In this document: one piece after another, positions 4,922 to 49,782 of the stretch
How the letters are laid out: each line of letters opens with the position of its first letter
Numbering within the stretch: the stretch's first letter is position 1
Assembly (NCBI RefSeq): GCF_009811555.1
Contig: NZ_BLIN01000005.1
Coordinates: 2,675,501 to 2,739,500 of the forward strand
Reading direction: 5' to 3'
DNA: 64,000 nt
Source of the DNA: Streptomyces caniferus
GTDB lineage: Bacteria > Actinomycetota > Actinomycetes > Streptomycetales > Streptomycetaceae
Made by a program: the position numbers and the translations under genes
The notes under the pieces: model-generated
Databases searched by the model: none
What the model was told of the DNA's origin: nothing
The model's input: the letters and a program-made list of their open reading frames with translations, nothing else

Positions 4922-5080
4922 CGCACCCGGCGCGACCGGGCCGAACGCGCCCCGCCCCGGCCCCACTTCGGACAACGCCCCGACCCCACTCCGGGCCGCC
5001 CCCACGCCGGGCCGCCTCGAACCTGCCCCGGCCCCGCCCGGACCTGATGCGGATCCGCCTGCGCCCTGCCCCGGCCCCCG

Positions 5081-5944: not shown

Positions 5945-6011
5945 GGCCCCAGTCTGCCGGGCCGCACCAGCGTTCAATACGGCAGTCCGGATGCCGGACG
6001 AGACTCCCCGT

Positions 6012-6473
6012 ATGACGACTGCACCGACCACCACCGCGTCCCCCGTTACGGCGCCGGCCGCCCCCCGCTTCGCCACCAAGATCGCCGTGATCGTCCGGGA
6101 GGACCTCGCCGTCTGGCAGAAGCTGAACGTCACCGCGTTCCTCGCCAGCGGCATCGCACACGCCTCCGGCGACATCATGGGCAAGCCCTACGAGGACGCC
6201 GCCGGCCACGACTATCTGGCCCTGCTCCGCGAGCCGGTGCTGTGCTACACCGCCGACGCCGGTGCCCTGACCCGTACCCACACCCGCGCCCTCAGCCGCG
6301 CCGTCCCCACCGCCCTGTACACCGCCGACATGTTCACCACGGGCAACGACGACGACAACCGCGCGGCGGTGCGCGCGGTGCCCGCCGATGCCCTGGACCT
6401 CGTGGGACTCGCCGTCTACGGACCGCGCTCCACCATCGACAAGATCACCAAGGGCCTGAAACTGCACGGCTGA
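6012..6473 (+). CDS. DUF2000 family protein
   Basis: This 153-residue protein matches the DUF2000 family, small alpha/beta proteins with a peptidyl-tRNA-hydrolase-2-like fold and no established role. Conserved-looking segments are the start RFATKIAVIVREDLAVWQKLNV, split by family convention around the KIAVIV strand, and the C-terminal YGPRSTIDKITKGL. The ATG at 6012 was preferred to one at 5991 because it gives the usual family length after a short Thr/Ala-rich lead. Divergent pairing with an AraC regulator is a recurrent context and suggests inducible expression. It ends shortly before a bidirectional terminator. Confidence 0.8.
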   Translation: MTTAPTTTASPVTAPAAPRFATKIAVIVREDLAVWQKLNVTAFLASGIAHASGDIMGKPYEDAAGHDYLALLREPVLCYTADAGALTRTHTRALSRAVPTALYTADMFTTGNDDDNRAAVRAVPADALDLVGLAVYGPRSTIDKITKGLKLHG

Positions 6474-6527
6474 CGGGGGCGGGTACCGGCGGGCGCCGGG
6501 CGGATCATGTCGGGCGCCGGCAGCGGT

Positions 6528-6560
6528 GAGGGCCGCACACCGTGCTGGTGTGCGGCCCTC
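6528..6560. terminator. Bidirectional hairpin terminator between convergent genes
   Basis: A 14-bp perfect stem (GAGGGCCGCACACC and its complement) with a 5-nt loop lies between the DUF2000 gene and the oppositely oriented VOC gene. It can serve both transcripts. Confidence 0.85.
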
Positions 6561-6570
6561 GGTTCATGCC

Positions 6571-6960
6571 TTACGAGGTCCAGCCGCCGTACGGCACGGT
6601 GATCAGCTCCATCGCGTGGCCCGCCGGGTCCATGAAGTACACGCCGCGGCCGCCGTCGTGGTGGTTGATCGTGCCGGGCTGTTGCCGGCGGGGGTCGGCG
6701 TAGTGCTCGATGCCGCGCTGCCTGATCTGCGCGTACGCCGCATCGAACTCCGCTTCGGAGACCAGGAAGGCGTAGTGCTGGGGGGTGATCTTGTCCGCGG
6801 GGACGGTGGCGAAGTCCAGCGTGACGCCGTTGCTCAGGCCGACAGCGAGGAACGGGCCCCACTCCACGGTGATTTCCAGGCCGAGCAGGTGCGCGAAGAA
6901 CTCCGCGGATTCCCGGTTGTCCCGGGCATGGACGATCGTGTGGTTCAACTCGACTGACAA
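6571..6960 (-). CDS. VOC-family (glyoxalase/bleomycin-resistance fold) protein
   Basis: The 129-residue product has the two beta-alpha-beta-beta-beta modules of the vicinal-oxygen-chelate superfamily. Metal-ligand candidates are the first-strand His (ELNHTIVHARD) and the C-terminal Glu in DPAGHAMELI. The repeated GLEITVEWG and GRGVYFMDP segments fit module ends. The start was set at TTG 6960 because GGAGG sits 6 nt before it; upstream in-frame sequence is Arg-rich and not VOC-like. Substrate is unknown. Relatives include lactoylglutathione lyase-like and drug-binding proteins. Confidence 0.85.
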   Translation of the reverse strand: MSVELNHTIVHARDNRESAEFFAHLLGLEITVEWGPFLAVGLSNGVTLDFATVPADKITPQHYAFLVSEAEFDAAYAQIRQRGIEHYADPRRQQPGTINHHDGGRGVYFMDPAGHAMELITVPYGGWTS

Positions 6961-7255
6961 GGAATGCCTCCGAGGGCATCTCCCGACACCTCCATGCCTC
7001 ACCCGGCCGGTGACCGACACGCGATGTCGCCGTCGATCCTAATCGCCGGTGTCGCCGCGGGGCCGGCGAACGGCGATGCGGCCCCCGCAGCGAGCGGTCG
7101 GCCGGGTTCCCCCACCCCTTCCCCGTGCGCACGCCGGACCACAGGGGACGCTCGCGAGTGGCCCTCGCGTCGCGCGGACCGGCGATGTAAGAGACTGCTC
7201 CCAGGGAATCAAGATCAAGGCGCCGATCCGGCGTCCCTTCTGTGAGAGGTGTCAT

Positions 7256-7591
7256 GTGCCCAGCGTGGTAAAGATCAACGTACTGACCGTTCCCGCCGAG
7301 CAGCGCGAGGTCCTGGAGAAGCGCTTCGCCTCCCGCGCCGGCACGGTGGACTCCTCGGACGGCTTCGAGTGGTTCGAGCTGCTGCGCCCCGTCGAGGGCA
7401 CCGACCAGTACCTCGTCTACACCCGGTGGCGGGACGAGGAGTCGTTCCAGGCGTGGATGGAGGGCCCGATGAAGGCCGCGCACCAGCAGGGCGGCGGGGC
7501 CGAGGGCGGCGAGCGGCCCAAGCCCGCCGCGTCCGGTTCCACCCTGTGGTCGTTCGAGGTCGTGCAGCAGGCCGGCCCCAAGCAGGGCTGA
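7256..7591 (+). CDS. Antibiotic biosynthesis monooxygenase (ABM) domain protein
   Basis: The 111-residue protein is a single ABM ferredoxin-like domain. KINVLTVPAEQREVLEKRF forms the first strand and helix, FEWFELLRP the middle strand, and YLVYTRWRDEESFQAW the conserved later strand with its W-x-D/S-x-x-x-F/Y signature. A Gly-rich stretch (QQGGGAEGG) sits in the last loop. The GTG at 7256 was chosen because GAGAGGTG precedes it; the ATG two bases upstream is in another frame and meets a stop after five codons. ABM domains include cofactor-free oxygenases and heme-degrading enzymes, and this one lacks distinguishing residues, so function is open. Confidence 0.85.
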   Translation: MPSVVKINVLTVPAEQREVLEKRFASRAGTVDSSDGFEWFELLRPVEGTDQYLVYTRWRDEESFQAWMEGPMKAAHQQGGGAEGGERPKPAASGSTLWSFEVVQQAGPKQG

Positions 7592-7656
7592 CCTCTCCGG
7601 CGGCGTCACTCGAAACCCGTTGCGCTGCGCGCCGTCCCGGCCGCCACAATGACGTC

Positions 7657-8193
7657 ATGAGTGACGCCGCCACCCTCCGCCTCCCCTGGACCGTCTCCCC
7701 TGAGCCGGTGGGCTCGCCGGATGCGGAGGCGCTGCTGCGCGAGTACTACACCGAGGTGGCCGACCGGTACTTCGCCCTGCACGAGGGCCGCAGCTCGACG
7801 CCGGCGGAGATCGACGAGGGCGTCGCGGAGTACCCCAGCGCCGATCTGACGCCGCCGAACGGCGTGCTGCTGCTGGCCCGCCACGGCGAGACGGTGGCGG
7901 GCTGCGCCGGCGTGCGGATGCTGGACGCCCGGACCGCGGAGCTCAAGCAGATGTTCGTACGGGCCGGCCGGCGCGGCCTCGGCGGGGCGGGCGTGCTGCT
8001 CACGGCCGCCGAGCGGGCCGCTGCGCGGTGGGGCGCCGAGCGGGTCCGGCTGGACACCCGGCTGGATCTGGTGGAGGCCGTCGCGCTCTACCGGCGGCAC
8101 GGCTTCGTGGAGATCGATCCGTACCACGAGGACCCGTACGCGGAGATCTTCTTCGAGAAGCGGCTGGGTGAGGGTGCGGGTTCGGCCGGCTGA
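7657..8193 (+). CDS. GNAT-family N-acetyltransferase
   Basis: The 178-residue protein carries the GNAT core in its C-terminal two thirds. The acetyl-CoA loop (VRAGRRGLGGAGVLL) follows the ELKQMFV strand, and LYRRHGFVEIDPY is the typical last motif. The N-terminal 60 residues are helical and may shape the acceptor site. The ATG at 7657 follows a TGACGTCA palindrome and lacks a clear ribosome site, so a leaderless transcript is possible. The neighbouring ABM gene ends 65 bp upstream on the same strand, and the two could be co-transcribed. The acceptor molecule cannot be predicted. Confidence 0.88.
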   Translation: MSDAATLRLPWTVSPEPVGSPDAEALLREYYTEVADRYFALHEGRSSTPAEIDEGVAEYPSADLTPPNGVLLLARHGETVAGCAGVRMLDARTAELKQMFVRAGRRGLGGAGVLLTAAERAAARWGAERVRLDTRLDLVEAVALYRRHGFVEIDPYHEDPYAEIFFEKRLGEGAGSAG

Positions 8194-8273
8194 GGTCCGG
8201 CTGCCGCCACCACCGACGTCGCCACCGCAACCCGGCCCGGCCCCCATCGCCCCCTTCCCCCTCCCCCTCCCCC

Positions 8274-10352
8274 TCACTTCGCCAGATCCGGCGGCCGTGG
8301 CGTGCGCGGAGGGATGCGGGGCAGCGGGCGGCGGGCGTCGCCGTTGTGGGGTTCCTCCGCGTCCGAGCCGCACAGTTCCGTCGTCAGCTCCCGCACGAGC
8401 GCGGTGAGGTCGGTGGGGCGGTCCTCGGTCCACCAGTCGCCGAGCATCTCCGCGAGCGACTGCTGACGGGCCGCGGAGAGCCGGTCGGCGGTCTCCCGTC
8501 CGTCGCCGGTGAGCCGGAGCAACAGCCCGTCGCGGGTGACGAGTCCGCGTTCCTCGATCTGCCGGATGCTCTCGGCGATCACCCCGAGCGGCACGGTACT
8601 GCGCTCGGCGAGCCGTGCCGGTTCCACCGAACCGCAGCGGTGGATGCGCAGGATCAGCCAGCCGGCGGCCGGTTTGAGGTCCAGTCCGGCCCGTGCGGTG
8701 ATCTTCTCGTAGATGCGCTTACGGCCTTCGCTGCTGCCCAGTTTGGACAGTGCGCGGGCGCATTCATCGCGCGAGGACCGCTCGACGGGGTTGGAGGAGA
8801 GCACCTCACTGGTGTCGGGCGCGGTGACGCTGCTGCGCAGCGGCTCCTCCCGGAGGAACCAGGCCAGGGCGAACGCGACCAGGACGACCGGGACGGCGTA
8901 GAGGAAGACATCGGTGATCGAGTCGGCGTAGGCGTGGAGGACACCGGCCGCCTGCCCGGACGGCAGCCGGGCGACGGTCCGCGGATCCTCGGCGATCGTG
9001 GACGCGTCGACGCCCGGCGGCAGTTGCGCCCCGGCGACGGCGTCGGCGATCCGCGGCCGCAGGTGGTTGGTGAAGACCGTGCCGAAGAGGGAGACGCCGA
9101 ACGAGCCGCCGATGGAGCGGAAGAACGTGGCGCCGGAGGTGGCGACGCCCAGGTCCTGGTAGGCGACGGCGTTCTGCGCGATGAGCACCAGCACCTGCAT
9201 GACCAGGCCGAGTCCGAAGCCGAAGACGAAGAAGTACGCGCTCATCCCGGCGACGCCGCCGGCCGGGTCGAGCCGGTGCAGCAGCAGGAGTCCGAGCGCC
9301 ACGATGCCGGTGCCGGCGATCGGGAAGATTTTGTAGTGGCCGGTGTGGCTGACGATCTGCCCGGACCCGGTGGAGGCCAGCAGCATGCCGCACACCATCG
9401 GCAGCATGTGCACACCGGACAGCGTCGGTGTCACTCCCTGCACGACCTGCAGAAACGTCGGCAGATACGTCATCGATCCGAACATGGCGAAACCGACGAC
9501 GAAGCCGATGACGGCGGTCAGCGTGAAGGTCCGGCTCCGGAACAGCCGCAGCGGCAGGACGGGTTCGGCGGCCCGGCGCTCGACGACGAGGAACGCCCCC
9601 AGCAGCACGACGCCGAGGGCGCCGCATCCCACGATCTGCCAGGAGGACCAGGGGTAGGTCACGCCCCCGAGCGAGGTCATCAGGACGAAGCAGGCGGCGA
9701 CCGCGGCGATCAGGGCGGTGCCCCGGTAGTCGATGCGGTGCGGGGTGCGGCGGCGCGGGATGTGCAGCACGGCGGCGATGACGGCGAGCGCGACGATGCC
9801 GACGGGGACGTTGATGTAGAACACCCAGCGCCAGGTGAGGTGGTCCACGAACAGCCCGCCGAGCAGCGGTCCGAGGACGCTGGTGCCGCCGAAGACGGCA
9901 CCGAACAGGCCCTGGTACTTGCCGCGTTCGCGGGGCGGCACGATATCGCCGACGATCGCCATCGACAGCACGATCAGGCCGCCGCCGCCCAGCCCCTGGA
10001 GGGCCCGGAAGGCGATCAGCTCCCCGATGTCCTGCGCGATGCCACACAGCACCGAGCCGATCAGGAAGATCACGATGGCGGTCTGGAACAGCTTCTTGCG
10101 GCCGTACTGGTCACCGAGCTTGCCCCACAGCGGCGTCGCGGCCGTCGCGGCCAGGAGGTAGGCGGTGACCACCCAGGAGAGGTGGTCGAGGCCGCCGAGC
10201 TCGCTGACGATCGTGGGCAGCGCGGTGGCGACGATGGTCTGGTCGAGCGCCGCGATGAGCATGCCGAGCAACAGCGCGCCGATCGCGACGAGGACCGTCC
10301 GCCGGGACCGGTCCTCGCCCGGGACGGCAGGAGCGCTGGTGTCCTGCGCCAT
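8274..10352 (-). CDS. DHA2/EmrB-type MFS multidrug exporter with a C-terminal MarR-like domain
   Basis: The first 500 or so of 692 residues are a 14-helix drug:H+ antiporter-2 transporter. Motif C-like and loop signatures are [17 protein letters not shown] in helix 1, [14 protein letters not shown] in loop 2-3 and [15 protein letters not shown] [14 protein letters not shown]. After the last helix a soluble segment of about 170 residues follows. Its core, residues about 560-650, reads as a winged helix: [20 protein letters not shown] then [20 protein letters not shown], as in MarR regulators. The ATG at 10352 is preceded by GGAGACGGAG. Export of a toxic compound is likely. Whether the C-terminal domain binds DNA or ligand, or only stabilises the protein, is unknown. 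Confidence 0.88.
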
Positions 10353-35020: not shown

Positions 35021-35026
35021 GACTGG

Positions 35027-35068
35027 TGGGCACAGCAGGATTTGAACCTGCGACATCTGCTTTGTAAG
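35027..35068. repeat. attL: 42-bp copy of the tRNA-Val 3' half
   Basis: This sequence is identical over 42 bp to 49711-49752, which spans the 3' end to the anticodon loop of the tRNA-Val gene. Identity stops abruptly on both sides. It marks the left boundary of the integrated element. Confidence 0.93.
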
Positions 35069-35491: not shown

Positions 35492-35971
35492 ATGCCGGGG
35501 GAAAGCGGGCAAAGAGTCAGTGTCGAACGGAACGAGTTCGCACTGGAGCGCTACCGATACATTCTGCAGCAGATCCACGCAGTCAACGAGAATGCTTACC
35601 GCTTCCTCGCTATTTACCAGACGCTCGCCACCACGCTAGTTGGCGCGGCCTTGACCCTCTTTGTTGGGTACCGCAAATGGGAGGTGACGCCAGCAACCGC
35701 AAGGGGCGGGGTTATCGGGATCTTGATCCTTGTCACAATGGCCGCCGCATTCACTGTCATGCTGATTGTGGTGGGTGCCGTCGCCTGGCTCGACTACCGC
35801 AACGAAGAGTGCGACGTCACCGATGAGATGGTCGGACCAGGCTTCCGAAAGCGTCCACGGCCGGGCAACCTCTTGCGCTGGTACGAAACTTACGTGCTGC
35901 TGTTCATTATCGTCTCGATGATCACCATGTGGATACTCGCCGAGTCGTTCATTCTGCCGGCAATGAGGTGA
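35492..35971 (+). CDS. Small multi-pass membrane protein (element cargo)
   Basis: The 159-residue protein has an N-terminal amphipathic helix (ERNEFALERYRYILQQIHAV), then a hydrophobic hairpin (YQTLATTLVGAALTLFVGY and GVIGILILVTMAAAFTVMLI), a charged loop (DYRNEECDVTDEM), and a C-terminal helix (YVLLFIIVSMITMWILAESF). It therefore has three or four membrane segments. GGAGGGAC precedes the ATG. The helix-plus-hairpin layout resembles small membrane proteins of the RipA or SLATT kind, some of which act as effectors in defence loci, but I cannot place it confidently. Without the IS that follows, its stop would lie about 190 bp before the HD/Hsp90 ATPase gene on the same strand. Confidence 0.72.
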   Translation: MPGESGQRVSVERNEFALERYRYILQQIHAVNENAYRFLAIYQTLATTLVGAALTLFVGYRKWEVTPATARGGVIGILILVTMAAAFTVMLIVVGAVAWLDYRNEECDVTDEMVGPGFRKRPRPGNLLRWYETYVLLFIIVSMITMWILAESFILPAMR

Positions 35972-36074
35972 CTGCTCCCAGCGGCCTTCCTGACTTCGTC
36001 AGGACATCTTCGCACAGAGCGGTTAGGCGCAGCCTGTCGAACGATACATCGCCAACCTTCTAGACTACTTACGC

Positions 36075-36946
36075 TAAGGGCTGTCCCATAATTGATCTAT
36101 GACGTGCTGGGTGGCTTGCTCGTTTGTTCGTCAGCCGGCGAGGGTGAGGTTGTGCAGGCGGGCGATGCCGAGCATTGCGTGGTGGACGCCGTTGCCTTTG
36201 AGGCGGCAGTCGCGGAGGATCTTCCAGCTCTTCATGCGGGCGAAGGTGTGCTCGACGCGGGCGCGGACCTTGCGGTGGGAGGTGTTGTGCTCTTCTTTCC
36301 AGGCCGGGAGTTCGGTCTGGACGCGTTCGCGGCGGTGCGGGATGACCAGGCCGGTGCCCCGGTAGCCGCCGTCTGCGATCACCGTGGTCTTGCCGACGGC
36401 GTCCCTGGCGCCGGACAGCTCCCACGCTTTGCAGTCGTTGCGGTTGCCGGGCAGCGGCCGGCCGACAGTAACGACCAGCCGGGTGTCGGCATCGATGACG
36501 ACCTGGTGGTTGGTGGAGTACCGCTAGTTCTTCGACTGCTCGGCGACCGTGTGGTCACGGGTGGGAACCAGAGTGCCGTCCACGATCAGCACGGTGTCCT
36601 TGCGGAACCGCTTGCGCGTCTGGAGCGCAAGCGAGGGCGCGAGGTGGTCGATGATGCGGTCAGCGGCCGACTTCGCCACTCCACACAGCGGGGCGAGTTG
36701 GCGCAGCGTCAGGTTCGTCCGCCAGTACGCGGCGACCAACAGCACCCGGTCCTCCAGCGACAGACTCCAGGGCCGGCCCTTGCGGACCGGGTCCACGCCC
36801 TCTCGCCGCAGCGCCGTGATCAGCTTGCCGAACTGCCGCGGGCTCAGCCCGGTGAACGGGGCTATCCAGGACGGCTCCGAGGACGTGATCACACCAGCCA
36901 CGGCGAGATCATCTCACCTACGACCAGCAGTTGCGGGACAGCCCTT
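36075..36946 (-). mobile_element. IS5-family insertion sequence, 872 bp, transposase inactivated
   Basis: Inverted ends TAAGGGCTGTCCC(A/G)(T/C)AA are found at 36075 and, in complement, up to 36946. Between them a single minus-strand DDE transposase frame fills the element. No direct target duplication is evident; the flanks read ACGC and GTCG. The IS sits between the small membrane protein gene and the HD/Hsp90 ATPase gene. Confidence 0.88.
36131..36901 (-). pseudogene. IS5-type DDE transposase with an in-frame amber codon
   Basis: The 256-codon frame runs uninterrupted except for one TAG (complement of 36524-36526) at codon 126. There EQSKN-stop-RYSTNHQVV would normally read EQSKNYRYSTNHQVV, so a single TAC-to-TAG change explains it. 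All three catalytic acids remain: Asp in VLIVDGTLVPT, Asp in TVIADGGYRG and Glu in RARVEHTFARMK. The N-terminal part holds the DUF4096-like helix-turn-helix (LTLRQLAPLCGVAKSAADRI). The copy is recent in appearance but should not make full-length protein, unless the amber is suppressed or the copy is complemented by another one. Confidence 0.88.
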
Positions 36947-37036
36947 AGTCGGCGTTGGTAAAGACATTGGCTGGCATCAAGGAAACTTTCTCGTTCTGGT
37001 AGCACGGCGCTAGCGTAACGCTGCACACTGATATAC

Positions 37037-39724
37037 ATGCACATCGACGGCCGAACTGCGGCAGGGCTCTGGAAGCGAGCGTTCTCTCCTGACAGCTTCA
37101 CAGAATCAGCGACTGAACGGGATAGATTCAGCTCGGCGCTTCACGATATGCGTACCCGTGGGGCACATTTGGCAGTTGAGATATCCGCCGACATGCCCGA
37201 TTTTACGCAGCATGATGTCACGCACATGGATTCCCTGTGGGAATTGGCTGACTTGGTTGCTGGCCCCCACACAACCCTAAATCCCGCCGAGGCTTTTGTC
37301 TTCGGCGGTGCTGTTATTGTGCATGACTTGGCAATGAGCCGCGCTGCTCATAGTTTGCTCGGTGGCGTTAGAAGTCGCGCCGACTGGCCCGATGCGCTTG
37401 CCTCGGAACTGCGATTTCAGCTACGCCGATCCCCGCATCCGTCCGAACTGGCAATGCCTCCGGAGGAAATTGCCGCCAGGGCGGAGAAGATTCTCTTTCG
37501 TCGAGCCCACGCCGAGTTGGCCGAGTCACTGCCGCTGACTTCATGGAAATCTCTGAGCGGTGACACCATGTATCTGATTTCTGATCCAGAAATCAGAATC
37601 GCTTACGGACGACTGATTGGCGAAATCGCTGCCAGTCATCACTGGAACTATGAAAAGGTAACCGAGCGGCTCTCCGCACCGGTAGGCGCGCCAGGGTTTG
37701 CCCCAGTCAGCTGGAAGGTCGACAGCCTGTATCTTGCTTGCCTCCTGAGAACAGCAGACGCTTCACATCTAGACGCCACACGCTCCCCAGACATTCTTGC
37801 CGCAGTACGCGAGATTTCTTCAGATTCGAGAGATCATTGGATCTTTCAAAGCAGACTACAGCGCCCTTACTTGCAGAATGAGAAATTGTGCTTTACGGCT
37901 CCAGCCGGTTTCAGCCGTGAAGAGATGAGTGCATGGTGGCTAGCTTATGACACGCTCAAGATGGTAGATGGAGAGCTTAAGAGCGCCGATACCTTACTGC
38001 TGGCCTCAGGACGTACACCATTCCAGGTGCGCGGCGTGGCAAACGTTCAGTCACCTTCTGCCTTCAGCTCGATAGCAGGTTGCCATGATTGGGAGCCGAT
38101 TGAGGCACGGGTTAAGGTTGGCGACGTTGCGAACCTGGTACGCCGACTGGGTGGAAAAGAACTGTACGGACAGGACTGGACCATCGGACTGAGGGAGATC
38201 CTCACAAACGCCTGTGACGCAGTGAAGGCAAGAGAGGCCCTTGCAGAATACAGGGGCGGACGGCGTGTGGTGGGAAGAGTCACCATTTCTGTAGAGGTCA
38301 CGGAAGATCAGGTCTGGCTATCCTGTCATGACAATGGAATTGGCATGACCTCTGGTGTGATGGGGCACCAGCTGCTCGACTTTGGTTGTTCCTCATGGCT
38401 CTCTCCGGATACGGCAAAATCCACCCCGGGGCTTATCGCGAGCAAGTTCGAGCCCACCGGAAAGTTCGGCATTGGGTTTTTCTCAGTCTTCATGCTGGGT
38501 GAGCGTGTTCAGGTCATTTCTCGCTCTCTTTCCGAGGGCCCATCGGAGACGTGGATTCTAGAATTTAGCTCTGGAGTGAATAAGCGCCCCACGCTGAGAA
38601 AAGCCGCTCAGAGTGAGCAACTTGACGAACCGGGAACCAGCGTTAGAGTGGCTCTAGACGCATCCATATACGCACAGTCCGAGAACTCGGTGGTATTCCG
38701 CTTCAAGACGCATGGATCTGCATTCACAACCGAGGGATTTGCGTCTATCTCGGATATCATTGCGTATGCCATGCCAGCCGCAGAGTGTGATTTGTGGGTT
38801 GAAGAGGCGGGCGTACCTGCAGAGGCCAGTCCAGTAATCGCAAAGAACGACTGGGTCACTGTAGATGGGTACCGCTTCCTATGCAGGGTGTTGGGCATAC
38901 CGGAAAAAGCACTCACCGATAAGGACGCTGACCCATATTCTACCCTTCGCGACTTTGCTGAGCAGCATAAAGACGATCTGTCTGTCATACGAGATTCTTC
39001 AGGGCTGCCAGCGGGAAGACTATGCATGGTCCCTGAGTCGACGAGGAGCGGGTTTTATTCTGCTCGCGACTCGTCATTTGTGACCGCTGGGCCGGCCAGG
39101 ACGAGTACTCGGGTTTACGCTGCGGCCGGAATTGCCATTGGCCGCCCAAGTAGAGCTGCGCGGGATAGTGCAATTCCTATCCTTGAGCCTGCCGAAATGG
39201 CGAAATGGGCAACGCGTGAAGCAGTCCGCCTCGCTGAACGGATTGCAGCTGGAACCCTTGAGGCAGGGGATTGGTGCATCGATGCAGCCGAACAAATTCT
39301 GCAATTTGGCGGAGACGTGGGCTTCCCGTTCTGGCGTACTAGCCAAGGATGGCTGACGCAGGATCAACTAGTCAGCTGGATGAAGGGGCGAACGGTGTTG
39401 TTTGTGACGCATCCCGTCTTTGCAGATGTTCGGGTTGGTCGCACCGATATCCCGGCTTCCCTCGAAGAGGGCATTGTCGTCTACGAGTGGTCCCATCGGG
39501 ACGCGCTATGGGGTGTCAAGGACTGGCCTGCGGTGAATAATGAGTACCGTGGCTGCACGGGTGCCTTGCTGAGAGCGATTGCTGAAGCGTGGGACGTGGT
39601 GATCTCGAGGGTGGTGGAGGCGAGTGCGAAGCGGGAGCAGGAATTCGTGATTGGGCGCCACGAAGGAAATGAGATGCGAGGAGAGTGCACCGTCTTCTCT
39701 CGCAGTGACCTTGAACGTACATGA
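37037..39724 (+). CDS. HD-domain/Hsp90-type (GHKL) ATPase, putative conflict-system protein
   Basis: In this 895-residue protein, residues about 40-260 form an HD-type domain: FTQHDVTHMDSLWELADL supplies the first His and His-Asp, and VIVHDLAMS a second His-Asp. Residues about 360-520 hold a GHKL/HtpG-like ATPase: LREILTNACDAVKAR (N box, with Glu, Asn and Asp), CHDNGIGMTSG (G1) and EPTGKFGIGFFSVFMLGE (G2/lid). About 350 further residues follow. HD-CE-like domains fused to Hsp90-type ATPases are predicted by comparative genomics to be nucleotide-dependent immune or stress proteins. GC is far lower than in the flanks, AGA and ATA codons are used, and a TTA codon occurs at 37994, implying bldA-dependent translation. 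No ribosome site precedes the ATG, and an IS lies just upstream. Confidence 0.85.
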   Translation: MHIDGRTAAGLWKRAFSPDSFTESATERDRFSSALHDMRTRGAHLAVEISADMPDFTQHDVTHMDSLWELADLVAGPHTTLNPAEAFVFGGAVIVHDLAMSRAAHSLLGGVRSRADWPDALASELRFQLRRSPHPSELAMPPEEIAARAEKILFRRAHAELAESLPLTSWKSLSGDTMYLISDPEIRIAYGRLIGEIAASHHWNYEKVTERLSAPVGAPGFAPVSWKVDSLYLACLLRTADASHLDATRSPDILAAVREISSDSRDHWIFQSRLQRPYLQNEKLCFTAPAGFSREEMSAWWLAYDTLKMVDGELKSADTLLLASGRTPFQVRGVANVQSPSAFSSIAGCHDWEPIEARVKVGDVANLVRRLGGKELYGQDWTIGLREILTNACDAVKAREALAEYRGGRRVVGRVTISVEVTEDQVWLSCHDNGIGMTSGVMGHQLLDFGCSSWLSPDTAKSTPGLIASKFEPTGKFGIGFFSVFMLGERVQVISRSLSEGPSETWILEFSSGVNKRPTLRKAAQSEQLDEPGTSVRVALDASIYAQSENSVVFRFKTHGSAFTTEGFASISDIIAYAMPAAECDLWVEEAGVPAEASPVIAKNDWVTVDGYRFLCRVLGIPEKALTDKDADPYSTLRDFAEQHKDDLSVIRDSSGLPAGRLCMVPESTRSGFYSARDSSFVTAGPARTSTRVYAAAGIAIGRPSRAARDSAIPILEPAEMAKWATREAVRLAERIAAGTLEAGDWCIDAAEQILQFGGDVGFPFWRTSQGWLTQDQLVSWMKGRTVLFVTHPVFADVRVGRTDIPASLEEGIVVYEWSHRDALWGVKDWPAVNNEYRGCTGALLRAIAEAWDVVISRVVEASAKREQEFVIGRHEGNEMRGECTVFSRSDLERT

Positions 39725-40471
39725 ACCGAACAGCACAGCACGAAGAGTGAGGCACTTCCGAGGAATAGGCTGCGTGACTTCCCAAAGCTTGGGATAGGGA
39801 ACAACGGAGGTCGGCAGAACGGCTTTGGGATGGAGCTGCTTTGGCGGCGAGTGATCATGGCACCGTAAGATTGCAGCGCGTTGGGCAGTCTGTGGACCTG
39901 CCTGGAAAAGCACGACGTTGGGGCCATGCTCTTCGAGGCTCACGCCAAAGTGGCTGCCTAAAGGTGTGGAGCCGACCGCCCCGGCCACGACGTACCCCTT
40001 CTCTGGCCAGGCGGCCGATTGCTCAGCGCGCGGCACGGGCGCCGGCCGGTCTGGAGCGGGGCGGAGACAGAAGCGCAGGCCCGGCCGGGGCCGTGCCGCG
40101 CGCGGGGAGCGGAGCTAGCCGCCTTGAGTAAGTGAAGACAGGGTTCGACAGCAGTCCGATGCGTCGGAACCTGGTGCACGGTGCCCCTCGTTGCGAACCA
40201 CCGGCGGCCTGGTCGCTGGGGTCTGTTTGGCTGGTCATCAGTGGCCCTGCGGCCGGTAGCCATCGGCTGAGGTCACCGCGGTTGCTGTGATTCGCTGCTG
40301 CACAAGCACGGCAGGCTGACCATCGCCCTAGAAGTGGGCAACCTGGCGCTCGGGGAATGGAGAACGTGCGCCGTCTGTGCGCCCATGCCCTCTTGTGCAA
40401 CTCGCAGGCTCAACGCATCGTGAGTGGAAACTGCTCGGCGTTTTGACGCCTCAAGGGGAGGGCGGTGCGGT
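39725..40471. other. Gene-free interval between ATPase and unknown gene
   Basis: About 750 bp hold only short Arg/Pro/Ser-rich frames on both strands, none with a convincing start or coding bias. Base composition rises from the AT-rich ATPase gene toward chromosomal GC around 40000. It may contain decayed genes. Confidence 0.4.
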
Positions 40472-43277: not shown

Positions 43278-43318
43278 CTAGCCACTCACTCTATAGTGGC
43301 TAGAGGTAATAGCCACTT
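43278..43318. promoter_or_regulatory. Three TAGCCACT operator boxes between DUF1152 and GntR genes
   Basis: TAGCCACT occurs at 43279-43286, as its complement AGTGGCTA at 43295-43302, and again at 43310-43317. The first two form a 9-bp inverted repeat (CTAGCCACT/AGTGGCTAG). The same box recurs upstream of the 44171 gene, so it is the likely site for the GntR protein encoded next door. Confidence 0.7.
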
Positions 43319-43334
43319 AGGGAAGGGGGAACGG

Positions 43335-44075
43335 ATGCCGAAGATCGAGGAGACCCAGCCCAAGTACCTTCAGATCGCGCACCACATTCGCGATCAGATC
43401 CTGCGGGGCGACTTGCGGCCTGGTGACGAAGTGCCGTCGGAACGTCAACTGGCGGCGGACTGGAACGTGTCGCGCCCGACGGCTGCGCGTTCGCTGGAAG
43501 CTCTGCGGCACCAGGGGCTGGTCGAGAAGCGGCAGGGCTCGGGCACGTACGTGCGGGGCCTGGCGGTCAACCGCCGTGCTCGTGAGCTGTACGGGCGGGC
43601 CAGGCAGACGGGCAAGATCTACACGCCCGGCGAGTACGCGGTGATCACGTCGGCGGGCTGGCTGGAGGCCCCGGAGTATGTGACGGAGTCGCTGAACTTG
43701 GCTGCCGGCGCCCGTGCGGTGCACCGTCGGCGGGTCACGAAGAACGACTCCGGCCCCATCACGCTCTCCACCTCCTGGTTCGGCCCCGATGTGGGCGAGC
43801 GCGCGCCGAAGCTCCGGGACCCCGACCGAATCCGGGAGGGCACGCTGATGTACGTCGAGAACATGACCGGGCGTCAAGGCAGCTACGCCGAGGACCGGAT
43901 GTGCGCTCGCCTCGCGACCGAGGATGAGGCCTCCGATTTGGAACTGGAGCCCGGATCAGCGGTGCTGATCGTCCATCACGTCGTCTATGACCTGCAGGAT
44001 CACCCCCTGGAGTTCGCCGAAGCGACGTACCCACCCAGCCGTTGGGCCTTCGAGCAGGGTTACCCGATCGGGTAG
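43335..44075 (+). CDS. GntR/HutC-type regulator of the element (first)
   Basis: Residues 1-75 are a GntR winged helix: KYLQIAHHIRDQILRGDL, then VPSERQLAADWNVSRPTAAR (the recognition helix), then LVEKRQGSGTYVRG. Residues about 90-245 form a UTRA ligand-binding domain with TLYVENMTGRQ-type strands and EPGSAVLIVHHVVYD near the end. GGGAAGGGGG lies before the ATG at 43335. It resembles KorSA/Pra-region regulators of Streptomyces AICEs. Boxes AAGTGGCTA flank the gene on both sides (three upstream, two downstream), suggesting that it controls itself, the divergent DUF1152 gene and the downstream small-protein operon. Confidence 0.88.
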   Translation: MPKIEETQPKYLQIAHHIRDQILRGDLRPGDEVPSERQLAADWNVSRPTAARSLEALRHQGLVEKRQGSGTYVRGLAVNRRARELYGRARQTGKIYTPGEYAVITSAGWLEAPEYVTESLNLAAGARAVHRRRVTKNDSGPITLSTSWFGPDVGERAPKLRDPDRIREGTLMYVENMTGRQGSYAEDRMCARLATEDEASDLELEPGSAVLIVHHVVYDLQDHPLEFAEATYPPSRWAFEQGYPIG

Positions 44076-44108
44076 AAAGCCTTGATCCTCCGACCGAAAC
44101 GCTTGTCC

Positions 44109-44142
44109 AAGTGGCTAATGCCGCTATCCAGTAAGTGGCTAA
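44109..44142 (+). promoter_or_regulatory. Two AAGTGGCTAA operator boxes before the 44171 gene
   Basis: AAGTGGCTAA is present at 44109-44118 and again at 44133-44142, a centre-to-centre distance of 24 bp. This is the same core as the boxes upstream of the GntR gene. They lie 30-60 nt before the next start. Confidence 0.7.
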
Positions 44143-44170
44143 GGCCACTTTCTCGGAAGGGGGCACGGGC

Positions 44171-44350
44171 GTGAGTCAGAAATCTGCGGAGTTACGACAC
44201 GTCGCCGCGGCCGCGTGTCGTGGATGCCGAGGCCGGGGCTGGAAGCGGGTCGGCTCCCGCTCGGCCTTGGCGGCCTCCGCGGCTGACGCTCGCGCCCGTG
44301 CTACGTCCAAGCGGCACTGTCTGGACTGCGGCGGCACCGGTAGGGAGTAG
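44171..44350 (+). CDS. Small CxxCxGxG zinc-ribbon protein
   Basis: The 59-residue protein carries two half-sites of a DnaJ-like zinc ribbon: ACRGCRGRGWKRVGS near residue 16 and HCLDCGGTGRE at the end, each with a C-x-x-C-x-G-x-G pattern. Together these can bind one zinc ion. The intervening Ala/Arg-rich helix is short. The GTG at 44171 is preceded by GGAAGGGGG. Such small ribbon proteins occur in AICE regulatory regions with no known job. It is followed 6 nt later by the RsbW-like gene, so they form an operon under the AAGTGGCTA boxes. Confidence 0.72.
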   Translation: MSQKSAELRHVAAAACRGCRGRGWKRVGSRSALAASAADARARATSKRHCLDCGGTGRE

Positions 44351-44356
44351 GACGGG

Positions 44357-44800
44357 ATGAGCGACGTCACTGGAGGCCCTGAGGGGCAGGGGGTTGAGCC
44401 CGTGTACATCGGCGCCATGACCTTGTACCCGGTGCCCGAGTCCGTGGCACGGGCTCGGCGCTGGTTCAGAAAGTTCACAGATCCGCATGGGCTGGCCTGC
44501 TCGGTGGAGGACTGTGTGGTGATGATCTCCGAGCTGGTCACCAACGCTGTTCTCTACGGCGAGGCGGAGGAATCCTGGCGGGTGCGCGTGGAGTGGTGGC
44601 GTGTCGGTGAAGCGCTGCGGGTGGACGTGCACAACGCCGGATTCCCCGCGAAAGTCCGCATGCGCGAGGCTGCCGACGACGAATCGCACGGACGGGGCCT
44701 GCGCCTTGTCGATGCACTGGCGGACTCATGGAGCGCCCGCCCGAGCCGCTTCGGCGGAACAGTCGTCTCGTTCACAGTCGATGAGGCTTGGAAGCCTTGA
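44357..44800 (+). CDS. RsbW/SpoIIAB-like HATPase_c protein
   Basis: The 147-residue protein is an HATPase_c_2 domain of the anti-sigma/serine-kinase kind common in Streptomyces. The N box is VVMISELVTNAVLYG (catalytic Glu and Mg-binding Asn), the G1-like loop is VDVHNAGFPAKV, and the G2 box is DDESHGRGLRLVDAL. Key features of SpoIIAB-type ATP binding are therefore kept, but no sigma-binding surface can be identified. The ATG at 44357 has GGGAG upstream, overlapping the end of the preceding gene. A PP2C-type phosphatase is encoded 0.9 kb downstream, so kinase and phosphatase activities are both present in the element, although no STAS antagonist is. Confidence 0.85.
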   Translation: MSDVTGGPEGQGVEPVYIGAMTLYPVPESVARARRWFRKFTDPHGLACSVEDCVVMISELVTNAVLYGEAEESWRVRVEWWRVGEALRVDVHNAGFPAKVRMREAADDESHGRGLRLVDALADSWSARPSRFGGTVVSFTVDEAWKP

Positions 44801-44846
44801 TGGACCTGGGCTCTGCGTTGCTCACGGGGGCGTGGGTATGCACTGC

Positions 44847-44897
44847 CTACTCACGTGAGTAGTCTGGTTGACAGGTTGACTTGGCTGATGTGAGTAG
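44847..44897 (+). promoter_or_regulatory. Promoter/operator region of the second GntR gene
   Basis: CTACTCACGTGAGTAG (44847-44862) is a perfect 16-bp palindrome, and its half-site GTGAGTAG recurs at 44890-44897. Between them TGACAGGTTGACTT (44869-44882) is the exact reverse complement of AAGTCAACCTGTCA at 47237-47250, upstream of the tra leader gene. Confidence 0.7.
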
Positions 44898-44907
44898 GCG
44901 GCGGGCT

Positions 44908-45636
44908 ATGGCGTACGAAGTGGCTGCACCAAAGTATGTGCGGCTTGCGCAAACGCTCCAGGGTCGGATCGAAGACGGTACCTACCCGGCCGGCACTCTC
45001 GTACCGAGCGAGAATCAGCTGGTCCAAGCCTTCGGCATGTCCCGCCCGACCGTCGTCCGGGCTCTCGAACTCCTCAAGCGGGACGGCTGGCTGGAGTCTC
45101 GGCAGGGGTACGGCACGATCGTCCGTGGTCGCCCTGAAGTGATCGAGCAGAAGGACCAGCGGGGGCGCGACGCGCTGGAGCGGGAGGAGTCGGCCGCGCT
45201 AGGTCGCCTCGTCCAGGTCGGCCAGGTGCCCATCCCCCCGCGGGTCGCCTCGATTCTCGGCGTGCCCAAGCGGGCCGAGGTGCTCGTCCGGCGGCTGCTG
45301 GTCGAGGACGAAGGTGAGCCGGTGGAGCTGGCTTCCTCGTACTTCCCTGCCGACCTGGTCGACGGCACAGACCTTGCTGACTCGGCCCCACTGGCCGAGG
45401 GCCTGCGTGCGCACGTCGAGTCTCGTAAGCGCGTGCGCTTCGACCATGTCACCGAGCGTGTCTCCGCTCGCCTGCCGAACAAGGAAGAGGCCGAACTGCT
45501 GGCTCTTCCCAAGGGTGAGCCAGTACTCAGCGTGCTGGTCGTCGCCTGCGATGTCTCGGGGCAGGCCCTACAGGTCACGGATGTGCTGCTGCCTGGCGAC
45601 CGCCAAGAGCTCGAAGACACGTACCGCCTGGGCTGA
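44908..45636 (+). CDS. GntR/KorSA-like repressor of the element (second)
   Basis: The 242-residue protein has a GntR winged helix at the N-terminus (PKYVRLAQTLQGRIEDGTYP, then LVPSENQLVQAFGMSRPTVV and LESRQGYGTIVRGR) and a UTRA domain over residues about 95-240 (PRVASILGVPKRAEVLVRRL, then EPVELASSYFPADLV). This is the arrangement of KorSA, the repressor of pSAM2 transfer and maintenance genes. The ATG at 44908 was chosen, since a TTG at 44881 lies inside the shared operator. The shared 14-bp operator indicates that it represses its own gene and the tra operon beginning at 47285. Confidence 0.88.
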   Translation: MAYEVAAPKYVRLAQTLQGRIEDGTYPAGTLVPSENQLVQAFGMSRPTVVRALELLKRDGWLESRQGYGTIVRGRPEVIEQKDQRGRDALEREESAALGRLVQVGQVPIPPRVASILGVPKRAEVLVRRLLVEDEGEPVELASSYFPADLVDGTDLADSAPLAEGLRAHVESRKRVRFDHVTERVSARLPNKEEAELLALPKGEPVLSVLVVACDVSGQALQVTDVLLPGDRQELEDTYRLG

Positions 45637-45677
45637 CTTCGACTGCCGGCCGACCGTCGCCGCCGCCGGGGCAGCAT

Positions 45678-46991
45678 TCAGGATGGCATGGTCCGCTCGC
45701 TTCCGGCCCTGGGGCCGATGTAGGCGGCGTTCGGCATGGGCCAGTCCAGGCACAGAACGGTGGCATCGTCGCGTGGGTCGTGGTTCGAGAACTCCAGAAC
45801 GGCTTCAGTCAAGGCACGTACAGCGTCGCGTGGGTGCCACTCGCCGGTCTCCCGGATCAGGTCGTGCAGGCCCGTTTCGGTCACGTGGGACTCCAGCATT
45901 CCATCGGTGAGCAGAACCAGCCGGTCACCCTCACGCAGGTCGAGGCTCTGGACGCGGTAACCCGGGTTCGGGGTAACGCCGAAGGGCAGATCGACCAGGG
46001 GAGCGACCTCCTCGACCTGCCCTTCGCGCAGGCGCAACGGCCAGATGTGGCCGGCGTTGACGAAGGTGGTCTGGCCGGTGTCGAGACTGACACGCAGCAG
46101 TTGGCCGGTGGCCATGACTTGGCCGCCGTGCCGAATGACGGCCTCACGCACCTGGTCCGATTGGTCGGCGAACGCCCGATGTGCTCGGTCTGCGTAGTCC
46201 GCGACGGCCTGGTGGGCGCCCTGGGCCTGATCGAGGAGGGTGCCGCCCACCCGGCGAGCGTTGCGCAGGGCTCCTACGACCATGGTCGCCAGCAGCGCTG
46301 CCTGTACGTCGTGCCCCATGGCGTCGGTGAGGGACAGGTGCAGGGCGTGACGGTCGAGCGTGTAGTCGAAGGTGTCCCCACCGATGTCGGCAGCCGGCTC
46401 CAGTGCTCCCGCGACGATGAACCGGCCGGTGTCACAGGTGAAGGAGTCAGGGAGTAGGCGGTGCTGGATCTCGGCGGCCAGCGACAGCCGTGTGGTGCGC
46501 CGGCCCCATTCGTACAGATCGGTGAAGCGCCGGTTGACGATCACCACGTAGGCCAGCGCATGGGCGGCCTCGACGATGAGTTGCATCGTCTGGCGATCAG
46601 GGAGGACGGGCAAGGTCAGCTCCAGCAGACCGATCGCATCCCCGCGGTCGGACACCGGCGCAATGATCTGGGAGGGGCCCGGTCCCCCCTCTCCCGCCCG
46701 CTCGCCACTCGCCACGTGCACTTGCACTTGCTGGGAGCGGACCACCCGCTCGTAGACCGAGCCGCGCAAGTCGATCCGCTGCGGCTGCTCCGGACCACCC
46801 TCCGTCGCGGTCCCGGTCAGCCGTACGACCGCCTTGCCGCCGAGGTCTGTGATCAGAAAGGACACCTCGGTCGCGGCAAGCTTCCTCGCCAGCAGTTGGG
46901 CCAGGACGGCGACGGCCACCTCCGGGGGTGCCGACTCCACTGACGCCAACAACTCGCCCAGCCATGCCCGTTCATCAGCCACGCGGCGCAC
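45678..46991 (-). CDS. PP2C/SpoIIE-type serine phosphatase (RsbU-like) with N-terminal sensor domain
   Basis: The 437-residue protein has a GAF-like sensory domain over residues about 10-170 and a SpoIIE/PP2C domain over residues about 190-420. Metal-binding Asp residues appear in AADIGGDTFDYTL and LSLTDAMGHDVQAALL, and later in VLLTDGMLESH, with a final DDATVLCLDW. This organisation is that of Streptomyces RsbU-like phosphatases that dephosphorylate anti-anti-sigma factors. A GTG at 46991 was taken as the start. It opposes the GntR gene 41 bp away. The RsbW-like ATPase on the element may be its functional counterpart, but no substrate STAS protein is encoded here. Confidence 0.88.
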   Translation of the reverse strand: MRRVADERAWLGELLASVESAPPEVAVAVLAQLLARKLAATEVSFLITDLGGKAVVRLTGTATEGGPEQPQRIDLRGSVYERVVRSQQVQVHVASGERAGEGGPGPSQIIAPVSDRGDAIGLLELTLPVLPDRQTMQLIVEAAHALAYVVIVNRRFTDLYEWGRRTTRLSLAAEIQHRLLPDSFTCDTGRFIVAGALEPAADIGGDTFDYTLDRHALHLSLTDAMGHDVQAALLATMVVGALRNARRVGGTLLDQAQGAHQAVADYADRAHRAFADQSDQVREAVIRHGGQVMATGQLLRVSLDTGQTTFVNAGHIWPLRLREGQVEEVAPLVDLPFGVTPNPGYRVQSLDLREGDRLVLLTDGMLESHVTETGLHDLIRETGEWHPRDAVRALTEAVLEFSNHDPRDDATVLCLDWPMPNAAYIGPRAGSERTMPS

Positions 46992-47640: not shown

Positions 47641-48990
47641 GTGCCCGACGTCATGACGCTCATGGAGCTGGGCGGGCCGCTCGCTGCAATAGGTGGAGCG
47701 GCCTACGCCCGGAAGGCCCATCCGACGGCCTACTGGTCAACCGTGGGGCTTCCGCTGTCGGTTGTCCGGCTGTTGGCCTCGTACGTCTCGACCATGGACG
47801 CCTGCGGTCTGACCGTCGAACCGTCCCGGCTGCGGGCCCTGGCCGTGCGAGCGACCACGCGTCGGGAGGTTCGTCCGGTGCCCCCGAGGCGGGGCATTCC
47901 TCGTCCCACCTCGACGGGGCTGCGTGTCCGGATCCGGCTCGCTCCTGGCCAGGAGCCGGCGGACGTGGCGGCTTCTTCCGAGAGGCTGCGGGATGCCTGG
48001 GGCGTTCACGCCGTGCATGTCGTGAGCCTCAAACCGGGCGTCGTCGAACTGCGGTTGGTCGGCTTCGATGTGCTGCGCAAGGTGAAGATGCCCCGCCAGG
48101 CCAGGAGTGAGCTGCTGGCGGTGCCGGTGGCGCTCCGGGAGGACGCAACCGCGTTTGTCCGCGACTACCGGACAGCCCCTCACCAACTGGTGCTCGGGGC
48201 GACCCTGTCGGGCAAGTCGATGTTCTTGCGCAACCTGCTCACCGGGCTGGCCGCTCAGCCGGTGGCTCTGGTCGGGATCGACTGCAAGCGCGGTGTGGAG
48301 CTGTCGCCGTTCGCCCCTCGGCTGTCTGCCCTGGCAACGGAGCCGGATGAGGCCGCGAAGCTGTTGCCCGTCCTGGTGAGGGAGATGGAGGACCGATACG
48401 ACCTGATCAAGACTCGTCAGGGCATCGCGCCGAATACGCCGGATGAAGAGATCACCTCGGACGTCTGGAGCCTGCCGGAGGGCGAGCGACCCCACCCGAT
48501 CGTGGTGTTCGTGGACGAGGTCGCCGAGCTGTTCCTCGTAGCCACCAGAAAGGACGAGGAGCGGCGCGACGAAATGGTGACCCAGTTGATCCGGCTCGCC
48601 CAGCTCGGCCGAGCCGCCGGTATCTACCTGGAGATCTGCGGACAGCGCTTCGGCGCCGAGCTGGGCAAGGGCGCCACCATGCTTCGTGCCCAGCTCACCG
48701 GACGCGTCTGCCACCGGGTCAACGACGAAGCCTCGGCAAAGATGGCGCTCGGCGATATCGCACCCGAAGCGGTCGGTGTCGCGTCGACCATCCCCGCTGA
48801 GATGCCGGGCCTCGCTGTGGCCGGCGATTCCTCCGGCGGTTGGATCCGCGTTCGTACTCCCTATCTCTCGCTCGCTGATGCCGCGGCCACCTGCCGTGAG
48901 ACCGCCGAACTCGTACCCGACGTACCGGCGCTGGAGCGTGCCGCATCAAGGGCGCCGGCGCGCCCAAGACCGCGGAACGCCCGTACCTGA
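47641..48990 (+). CDS. FtsK/SpoIIIE-type DNA translocase (TraB/TraSA-like), 3' end altered by deletion
   Basis: The 449-residue protein has an N-terminal region with a single short hydrophobic stretch (GGPLAAIGGAAY), a linking domain over residues about 90-160, and an FtsK motor. Walker A is VLGATLSGKSMFLRNLL (about residue 190), with Ser in place of the usual Gly/Thr. Walker B is PHPIVVFVDEVAELF, and the typical GIYLEICGQRFGAEL follows. TraB-type proteins move double-stranded plasmid DNA between hyphae. The last 17 or so residues (ERAASRAPARPRPRNART) are Arg/Pro-rich and come from out-of-frame integrase DNA, so the native C-terminus was lost. The motor core seems whole. Confidence 0.85.
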   Translation: MPDVMTLMELGGPLAAIGGAAYARKAHPTAYWSTVGLPLSVVRLLASYVSTMDACGLTVEPSRLRALAVRATTRREVRPVPPRRGIPRPTSTGLRVRIRLAPGQEPADVAASSERLRDAWGVHAVHVVSLKPGVVELRLVGFDVLRKVKMPRQARSELLAVPVALREDATAFVRDYRTAPHQLVLGATLSGKSMFLRNLLTGLAAQPVALVGIDCKRGVELSPFAPRLSALATEPDEAAKLLPVLVREMEDRYDLIKTRQGIAPNTPDEEITSDVWSLPEGERPHPIVVFVDEVAELFLVATRKDEERRDEMVTQLIRLAQLGRAAGIYLEICGQRFGAELGKGATMLRAQLTGRVCHRVNDEASAKMALGDIAPEAVGVASTIPAEMPGLAVAGDSSGGWIRVRTPYLSLADAAATCRETAELVPDVPALERAASRAPARPRPRNART

Positions 48991-49692: not shown

Positions 49693-49710
49693 TGTCGTTT
49701 GCGTGGTGAG

Positions 49711-49752
49711 TGGGCACAGCAGGATTTGAACCTGCGACATCTGCTTTGTAAG
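49711..49752. repeat. attR: 42-bp core shared with attL
   Basis: TGGGCACAGCAGGATTTGAA and the following 22 nt, to TTTGTAAG, are identical to 35027-35068. They form the 3' half of the intact tRNA-Val gene on the minus strand. Confidence 0.93.
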
Positions 49753-49782
49753 AGCAGCGCTCTACCGCTGAGCTATGCGCCC
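49711..49782 (-). tRNA. tRNA-Val (anticodon UAC)
   Basis: The minus strand reads GGGCGCATAGCTCAGCGGTA onward and folds into a cloverleaf. It has an acceptor stem GGGCGCA/TGTGCCC, a D arm GCTC/GAGC, an anticodon stem CTGCT/AGCAG with loop CTTACAA (anticodon TAC), and a T arm with GTTCAAATC. The last nucleotide before CCA addition is A. CCA is not encoded. The 3' half was re-created by the element on integration. Confidence 0.95.

Follow-up and report, generated by a model that had tools for sequence, protein, structure and literature searches.

A membrane protein gene recurring beside an HD-CE/Hsp90-type ATPase gene: a candidate antiviral system in a Streptomyces element

A recurrent gene pair

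In a 64,000-nt stretch of Streptomyces caniferus DNA (NZ_BLIN01000005.1; hereafter the window, to which coordinates without a locus number refer), a gene for a membrane protein of 159 amino acids (aa) is followed on the same strand by a gene for an 895-aa protein that joins an HD-CE domain to an Hsp90-type ATPase domain. An insertion sequence (IS) lies between them. In sequence comparisons, the two genes turned up repeatedly as neighbours and at unrelated sites, and this recurrence suggests that they are probably an undescribed bacterial antiviral system, for which we propose the pair as a candidate. The genes had been picked out, in this order and on the same strand, by an earlier interpretation made from the letters of the window alone (the sequence-only reading), and its arrangement of the pair is confirmed here.

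The ATPase protein

The ATPase gene starts with ATG, and its open frame of 901 aa leaves room for only six codons upstream. The fusion of an HD-type domain to a GHKL ATPase postulated by the sequence-only reading is borne out by Pfam, where both HD-CE (PF24391; E 3.7e-44, 151.8 bits against a cut-off of 27) and HATPase_c_3 (E 3.1e-7, 30.9 bits against a cut-off of 25, aa 385-526) are matched, and the motifs QHDVTH and VHDLAM are present in the HD-CE domain. In an alignment of 59 relatives, H96, D97, H158, H201 and D241 of the HD-CE domain and D432, G434, G436, G478 and G480 of the ATPase domain are invariant, while H59, D60, H63, E387, N391 and D394 are at least 90% conserved; the N, G1 and G2 boxes are thus complete, as had been noted. 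H59, H63, H96, D97 and D241 are also invariant across 10 divergent HD-CE members. The HD phosphohydrolase superfamily is recognized by conserved H, HD and D residues, and the HD-CE domain follows this pattern; with these putative metal ligands conserved, it is enzyme-like.

The HATPase profile and the N, G1 and G2 motifs place the second domain among the GHKL/Hsp90-like ATPases, and all 60 listed of its 151 PDB sequence matches belong to the Hsp90 family (best E 9.1e-24). As judged from sequence, the domain is Hsp90-like. The protein is not HtpG, as its scores with the NCBIfam equivalogs (57.9 and 59.6 bits) lie far below the cut-offs of 371 and 455, respectively. The region after residue 546 varies far more than the rest of the protein, and searches of PDB sequences with the HD-CE domain or the C-terminal half alone gave nothing convincing (best 0.07 and 0.29, respectively). 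R709 in this half is invariant in the 59 relatives. S5-fold domains lend a basic "finger" to such ATPases, according to an available excerpt of PMC2292703, and our guess is that R709 could be this finger. Pfam searches of the protein found no DUF4263 nuclease domain (E<=1) and no Cas_APE2256 or other CARF domain. The ATPase protein itself is not new, since HD-CE is already a Pfam entry; its domain order and lengths are those of many unnamed homologues that combine HD-CE with an Hsp90-like ATPase. The membrane partner is not included in that entry.

The membrane protein

The membrane gene begins with an ATG preceded by GGAGG; a listed 239-aa open reading frame (ORF) from 35252 was rejected as an over-extended start of the same gene. 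The protein has three hydrophobic segments, and its predicted model consists of three helices (residues 3-59, 67-113 and 130-157; mean predicted local distance difference test score 85.3). A search returned 379 relatives, and among the 120 listed, those with a named source come mostly from Streptomyces. Residues shared with far relatives (E19, R20, Y21, W99, D101, Y102, R103, E106, R119, P122, W130 and E132) are charged or aromatic and adjoin the membrane segments.

This family, with its ERY...WxDYRxxE signature, is named above cut-off by none of the libraries used: the protein reaches no Pfam cut-off and matches no PHROG at E<=0.01, and the longer reading frame of the gene matches nothing in PADLOC or NCBIfam at E<=1. 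Its profile finds no PDB sequence at E<=1. DUF2157 was rejected, as its 27.7 bits lie below the cut-off of 32.4. The sequence-only reading had suggested SLATT, for which sequence comparison gives no support in the window protein: SLATT is not one of the 16 Pfam families that 11 members hit at E<=10, and hhalign detected no similarity to the SLATT_2 protein of locus L002, represented by a single sequence. The guess does hold for L002 (Streptacidiphilus), in which SLATT_2 (E 2.9e-22) is encoded 21 bp downstream of the related ATPase gene.

Linkage of the two genes

A sample of 392 genomes of the genus contains nine with the ATPase (counted at E<=1e-40) and 11 with the membrane gene (E<=1e-6). 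The membrane gene adjoins the ATPase gene in all nine ATPase loci, so the sequence-only reading's own ground for giving up its proposal, an ATPase never found with the membrane protein, did not arise. All nine ATPase genomes fall within the 11 membrane-gene genomes (hypergeometric P ~1e-16, ignoring shared ancestry), and the association exceeds chance. In eight of the nine loci the membrane gene comes first on the same strand, seven times with a spacing of 9 bp and the eighth time, in the window, with the IS in between; the two genes are convergent in L025. Conversely, an HD-CE ATPase or its remnant was found at all 12 membrane-gene loci of the sample. Two of these (L033 and L034) pair the membrane gene with a quite different HD-CE and HATPase protein of 1,022-1,030 aa, and in L035 (about 8804-10149) a decayed ATPase gene lies beside a broken membrane gene. 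A decaying copy of the membrane gene is also seen in L029 (8983-9456), where it carries an in-frame TAG.

The linkage extends beyond the genus. In Nonomuraea (L067) the ATPase gene comes first and overlaps the membrane gene by 4 bp. At least 15 of 62 ATPase relatives (P0122-P0183) have a membrane relative on an equally sized contig, with 120 of the 379 membrane relatives listed. From contigs of a collection in which viral status is a prediction, 10 ATPase loci were fetched, 9 of them distinct, and in two of them the ATPase gene has a far membrane relative as its neighbour (E 1.6e-15 and 6.1e-12; 2,405 ORFs searched), with divergent orientation in one and convergent orientation in the other. 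A scan of the viral contigs with the membrane alignment returned those two loci only, both already in the alignment; the window protein as a single sequence matched none of these contigs, and the membrane relative of L082 only itself. A protein search with the relative from L076 likewise returned only itself. Of the plasmid records, two matched the ATPase, one the membrane protein and none the L076 relative. Across the class the pair is rare: among 394 genomes, the Nonomuraea ATPase as query matched two, one of which (G686) has no membrane gene and an ATPase split over two frames, and the membrane alignment matched only the window's own genome.

In total, 24 ATPase or HD-CE-derived loci were compared, with the identical L078 and L079 counted once. 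The membrane family is adjacent in 13, and in L002 SLATT_2 stands in its place. We are highly confident that the membrane gene and the ATPase gene are a functionally coupled pair.

Evolution of the pair

The ATPases of the 13 pairs form three clades plus Nonomuraea. HD-CE domains are 20-44% identical between clades and the C-terminal halves 12-25%, and within clades the membrane protein and HD-CE change about equally fast (69% and 77% identity, respectively, for L001-L025, 71% and 80% for L033-L034, and 94% and 96% for L028-L032). The membrane protein of the window is 70-80% identical to clade B partners and 70-76% to clade C partners, while the HD-CE domain of the window ATPase is 38-42% identical to clade B and 20% to clade C, and its C-terminal half 16-20% to both. 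Synonymous differences to clade B are also lower for the membrane gene (0.46-0.65) than for HD-CE (0.71-0.79), with values near saturation between clades. The simplest reading of these sequence comparisons would be a swapping of membrane genes (or ATPases) among modules. The membrane tree is star-like with little support, and in it the approximately unbiased (AU) test does not reject the grouping of ATPase clade A (p 0.371) or of clade B (p 0.165). On these grounds we regard partner exchange as a suggestion and not as a finding.

Several Streptomyces pairs of one ATPase clade (L026-L028, L030 and L032) have a normal, high third-position content of guanine plus cytosine (GC), which indicates that signs of recent acquisition are not shared by all copies. 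In these loci as fetched, no tRNA gene was detected.

Defence context

The sequence-only reading held that confinement of the ATPase to conserved housekeeping loci would speak against its proposal. Instead, the ATPase is sparse in both genome samples and some copies lie in viral contigs; in four of the nine distinct viral loci, the gene has a phage repressor or integrase gene as immediate neighbour. A repressor gene lies 33 bp (L074), 60 bp (L078/L079) or 68 bp (L082) upstream. An integrase gene lies downstream in L083 and also in L082, where the membrane gene separates it from the ATPase gene; in L077 an integrase gene is found ~3.2 kb upstream, and in L076 a Rha gene on the downstream side. 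Genes at such positions often protect the lysogen. The P2 and P4 hotspots (PMC9122126) are an example. Both the sparse, often low-GC, element-borne placement and the placement near repressors and integrases in viral contigs argue for defence.

The same repressors and integrases, and the position of the pair next to an element end, could also reflect a system that acts between mobile elements, by excluding rivals or stabilising the host element, and whose target would not be lytic phages. We consider this improbable, as a mobile carrier is not evident for the high-GC pairs that lie in loci with no tRNA gene found. A regulated chaperone or stress-signalling pair without a conflict role would fit an ATPase domain nearest to Hsp90 and the regulatory phosphatase and anti-sigma-type ATPase encoded in the same element. 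It is hard to reconcile with the sparse distribution (9/392), the viral contigs, the decayed copies in L035 and L029 and scores far below the HtpG cut-offs, and we give it very little weight.

Further links to defence come from related proteins. HD-CE is fused to Cas_APE2256, which we take to be a CARF family, in two proteins from one genome, G658 (L070 801-3098 and L071 1598-3781), the first of which is encoded at a locus that also carries Cmr2 and RAMP genes. These share the HD-CE domain of the window protein and the same conserved H, D and R residues, and differ in that the window protein lacks Cas_APE2256 and has the Hsp90-type ATPase instead; they are possibly an undescribed class of type III CRISPR effector. 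SLATT, found in the partner position in L002, is a predicted nucleotide-responsive pore-former (from the part of PMC7159879 available) and is required for phage defence by DRT10 (passages of PMC12632851). A GHKL ATPase is required for defence by VcSduA (Shedu with a GHKL ATPase; paraMORC3), as stated in an extract of PMC12137116. The Cas_APE2256 fusion, the SLATT_2 partner and the requirement for the GHKL ATPase in VcSduA all point to defence, and a conflict or defence role of the pair is, in our estimation, likely.

Proposed mechanism

With modest confidence, we propose as the overall explanation a two-gene conflict module, most likely directed against phages, that is carried as element cargo. 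The fast-changing C-terminal half would sense a product of the invader, and ATP-driven closure of the Hsp90-type clamp would relay this to the HD-CE domain, which may then act on a signal that bears phosphate, a nucleotide being the most likely. Until signalled, the membrane protein would stay silent; it would then permeabilise or depolarise the membrane, such that the infected cell arrests growth or no longer supports the phage. That the membrane protein is the effector seems to us slightly better than an even bet; passage of the signal through HD-CE chemistry is a more tentative element, which we would sooner doubt than accept.

The comparison between loci bears on how the two proteins communicate. 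One membrane family is shared across HD-CE domains only 20% alike, and SLATT_2 can replace it, which would favour a signal that diffuses, or else a contact that is very conserved, over a finely co-evolved interface. In its most novel form, the proposal would be an undescribed immune type in which the Hsp90-type clamp contains an HD phosphohydrolase and uses a diffusible, phosphate-bearing signal to control a membrane effector that can be interchanged, with one membrane protein (or SLATT) serving ATPases whose HD-CE domains are ~20% alike and whose sensor halves are more divergent still. This form is speculative and we think it rather unlikely to be correct. If the main proposal holds, the choice between protein contact and diffusible signal becomes directly testable, given the natural substitution by SLATT_2 and the unequal divergence of the two genes.

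Several results weigh against a fixed two-gene antiviral system. The strongest is that the ATPase is not tied to this membrane partner outside actinomycetes: profile searches found no membrane relative in 10 of the 24 loci (L066, L068, L074, L075, L077, L078/L079, L080, L081, L083 and L084), nor was SLATT found there among the neighbours scanned (the L083 record begins at the ATPase), so the ATPase may act alone. The membrane tree is compatible, by the AU test, with the same history as the ATPase. The predicted model of the membrane protein appears to resemble only designed helix bundles and other generic matches among PDB folds; SLATT is absent from these matches, which excludes nothing. The PADLOC 2023 defence models gave TmtA as the sole match (E 0.0059 over 24 residues), and no match to the ATPase was found among 50,697 phage records.

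The partnerless loci would be explained if the ATPase protein itself were the effector. Its HD-CE domain would then destroy nucleotides or another phosphate ester upon triggering of the clamp, and the role of the membrane protein would be that of an anchor, an inhibitor or a sensor of events at the membrane. The two Cas_APE2256 fusions, in which the HD ligands are kept and HD-CE occupies the place expected of an effector, are also in line with this. Complete linkage within the genus and the replacement of the membrane protein in L002 by SLATT_2, itself regarded as an effector, are difficult to accommodate, and we judge this alternative unlikely, if worth keeping in mind.

A module with a separate membrane effector, as proposed here, can be compared with several known systems. 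It resembles SLATT systems such as DRT10 in that a related ATPase has SLATT_2 as its neighbour in place of the membrane protein and the window protein is likewise a small membrane protein with long helices; it differs in its three membrane helices and in the lack of any SLATT match or hhalign similarity to the L002 protein. The GHKL ATPase of VcSduA is proposed to control the effector (extract of PMC12137116), whereas the window protein lacks the DUF4263 nuclease and what we presume to be the effector is encoded separately, as a membrane protein. Panoptes (OptS/OptE) also consists of two genes, for a nucleotide enzyme and a membrane effector (portions of PMC12657218), but the window ATPase protein has no CRISPR-polymerase domain. 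The chief novelty would be a membrane partner that can be exchanged and whose family has no curated profile. Among the open-licence papers listed we found neither the name HD-CE nor the linkage to the membrane gene, the SLATT_2 replacement or the placement beside repressors. If the proposal is correct, an Hsp90-type machine joins the sensors placed before membrane-disrupting effectors in bacteria, and HD-CE proteins gain a concrete partner for testing.

Some partnerless loci have neighbours of their own. Viral contig L077 encodes, 418 bp downstream of the HD-CE ATPase and facing its gene, a 247-aa predicted membrane protein (7564-8307) that is unrelated to the window family, has no Pfam match above cut-off and is possibly another type of partner. 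In viral contig L081, a gene for a 313-aa protein of no Pfam family (4945-5886) lies directly upstream of the HD-CE ATPase gene. In the region 4971-11248 of L066 (Zymomonas mobilis plasmid pZMOB03), the HD-CE ATPase gene is without the membrane gene and lies ~1 kb upstream of a TIR-AAA-TPR gene. Viral contig L075 carries a second GHKL gene (802-2778; 658 aa, HATPase_c_3 1.4e-16) ~3.2 kb upstream of that for the HD-CE ATPase (5977-8637).

The insertion sequence and the integrative element

The pair sits just inside one end of a 14.7-kb element at a tRNA-Val gene (Table 1), in agreement with the sequence-only reading, which had placed it in a mobile element at a tRNA site. The element is bounded by the 43-bp direct repeat and contains genes for an FtsK/SpoIIIE protein, a short tyrosine integrase, two GntR-type regulators, a SpoIIE phosphatase and a small ATPase. 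It has the tRNA att repeats, integrase and FtsK-type transfer gene of an actinomycete integrative and conjugative element (AICE). AICE criteria further include a replication initiator and an excisionase, which were not found among the subset of element ORFs scanned. GC content is 55.9% for the ATPase gene and 57.7% for the membrane gene against 70.7% for the window, which upholds the earlier remark on low GC; rare codons, invoked in the same argument, are weak support for foreign origin, with one TTA codon in the ATPase gene and none in the membrane gene.

The IS between the genes is of IS5 type, with 11-bp perfect ends (AGGGCTGTCCC). It had been called correctly, with a size of 872 bp that must be revised to 869 bp, and the gap of about 190 bp estimated for the pair without it is 194 bp. 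No second full copy was found in the genome, which holds only partial matches of 72-89% identity. Both window ORFs are intact, yet the IS may uncouple their expression.

Table 1. Positions of the gene pair and of the features of its element in the window
Feature	Position	Strand	Remark
att-like end, perfect 43-bp repeat of the tRNA-Val 3' end	35026..35068		identical to 49710-49752
Three-helix membrane protein, 159 aa, putative effector	35492..35971	+	below every Pfam cut-off
IS5-type insertion sequence separating the pair	36077..36945	-	transposase pieces in two frames; TA duplication
HD-CE + Hsp90-type (GHKL) ATPase + variable C-terminal region, 895 aa	37037..39724	+	HD-CE aa 53-315; ATPase aa ~373-545; variable aa 546-895
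Segment 3' of the ATPase gene	39808..40127		common to three other pair-bearing loci
FtsK/SpoIIIE-type gene of the element	47641..48990	+	E 8.9e-35
Short tyrosine integrase of the element, 204 aa	48993..49607	+	E 3.5e-20
Second att-like end	49710..49752		within tRNA-Val (49710-49782, minus strand)

Other loci also lie near tRNA genes: a tRNA-Val-like end (89% over 46 bp) is found ~0.8 kb from the ATPase and SLATT_2 pair of L002, and tRNA-Ser genes lie within L001, L029 and L084. Inside the window element, 43296-46991 encodes the two regulators, both of GntR-UTRA type, the small ATPase, a HATPase_c_2 protein, and the SpoIIE phosphatase. The segment 3' of the ATPase gene is 88.5% identical to that of L001, 91% over 155 bp to that of L025 and 78% over 94 bp to that of L034, and it keeps its place in L025 despite the inverted ATPase gene.

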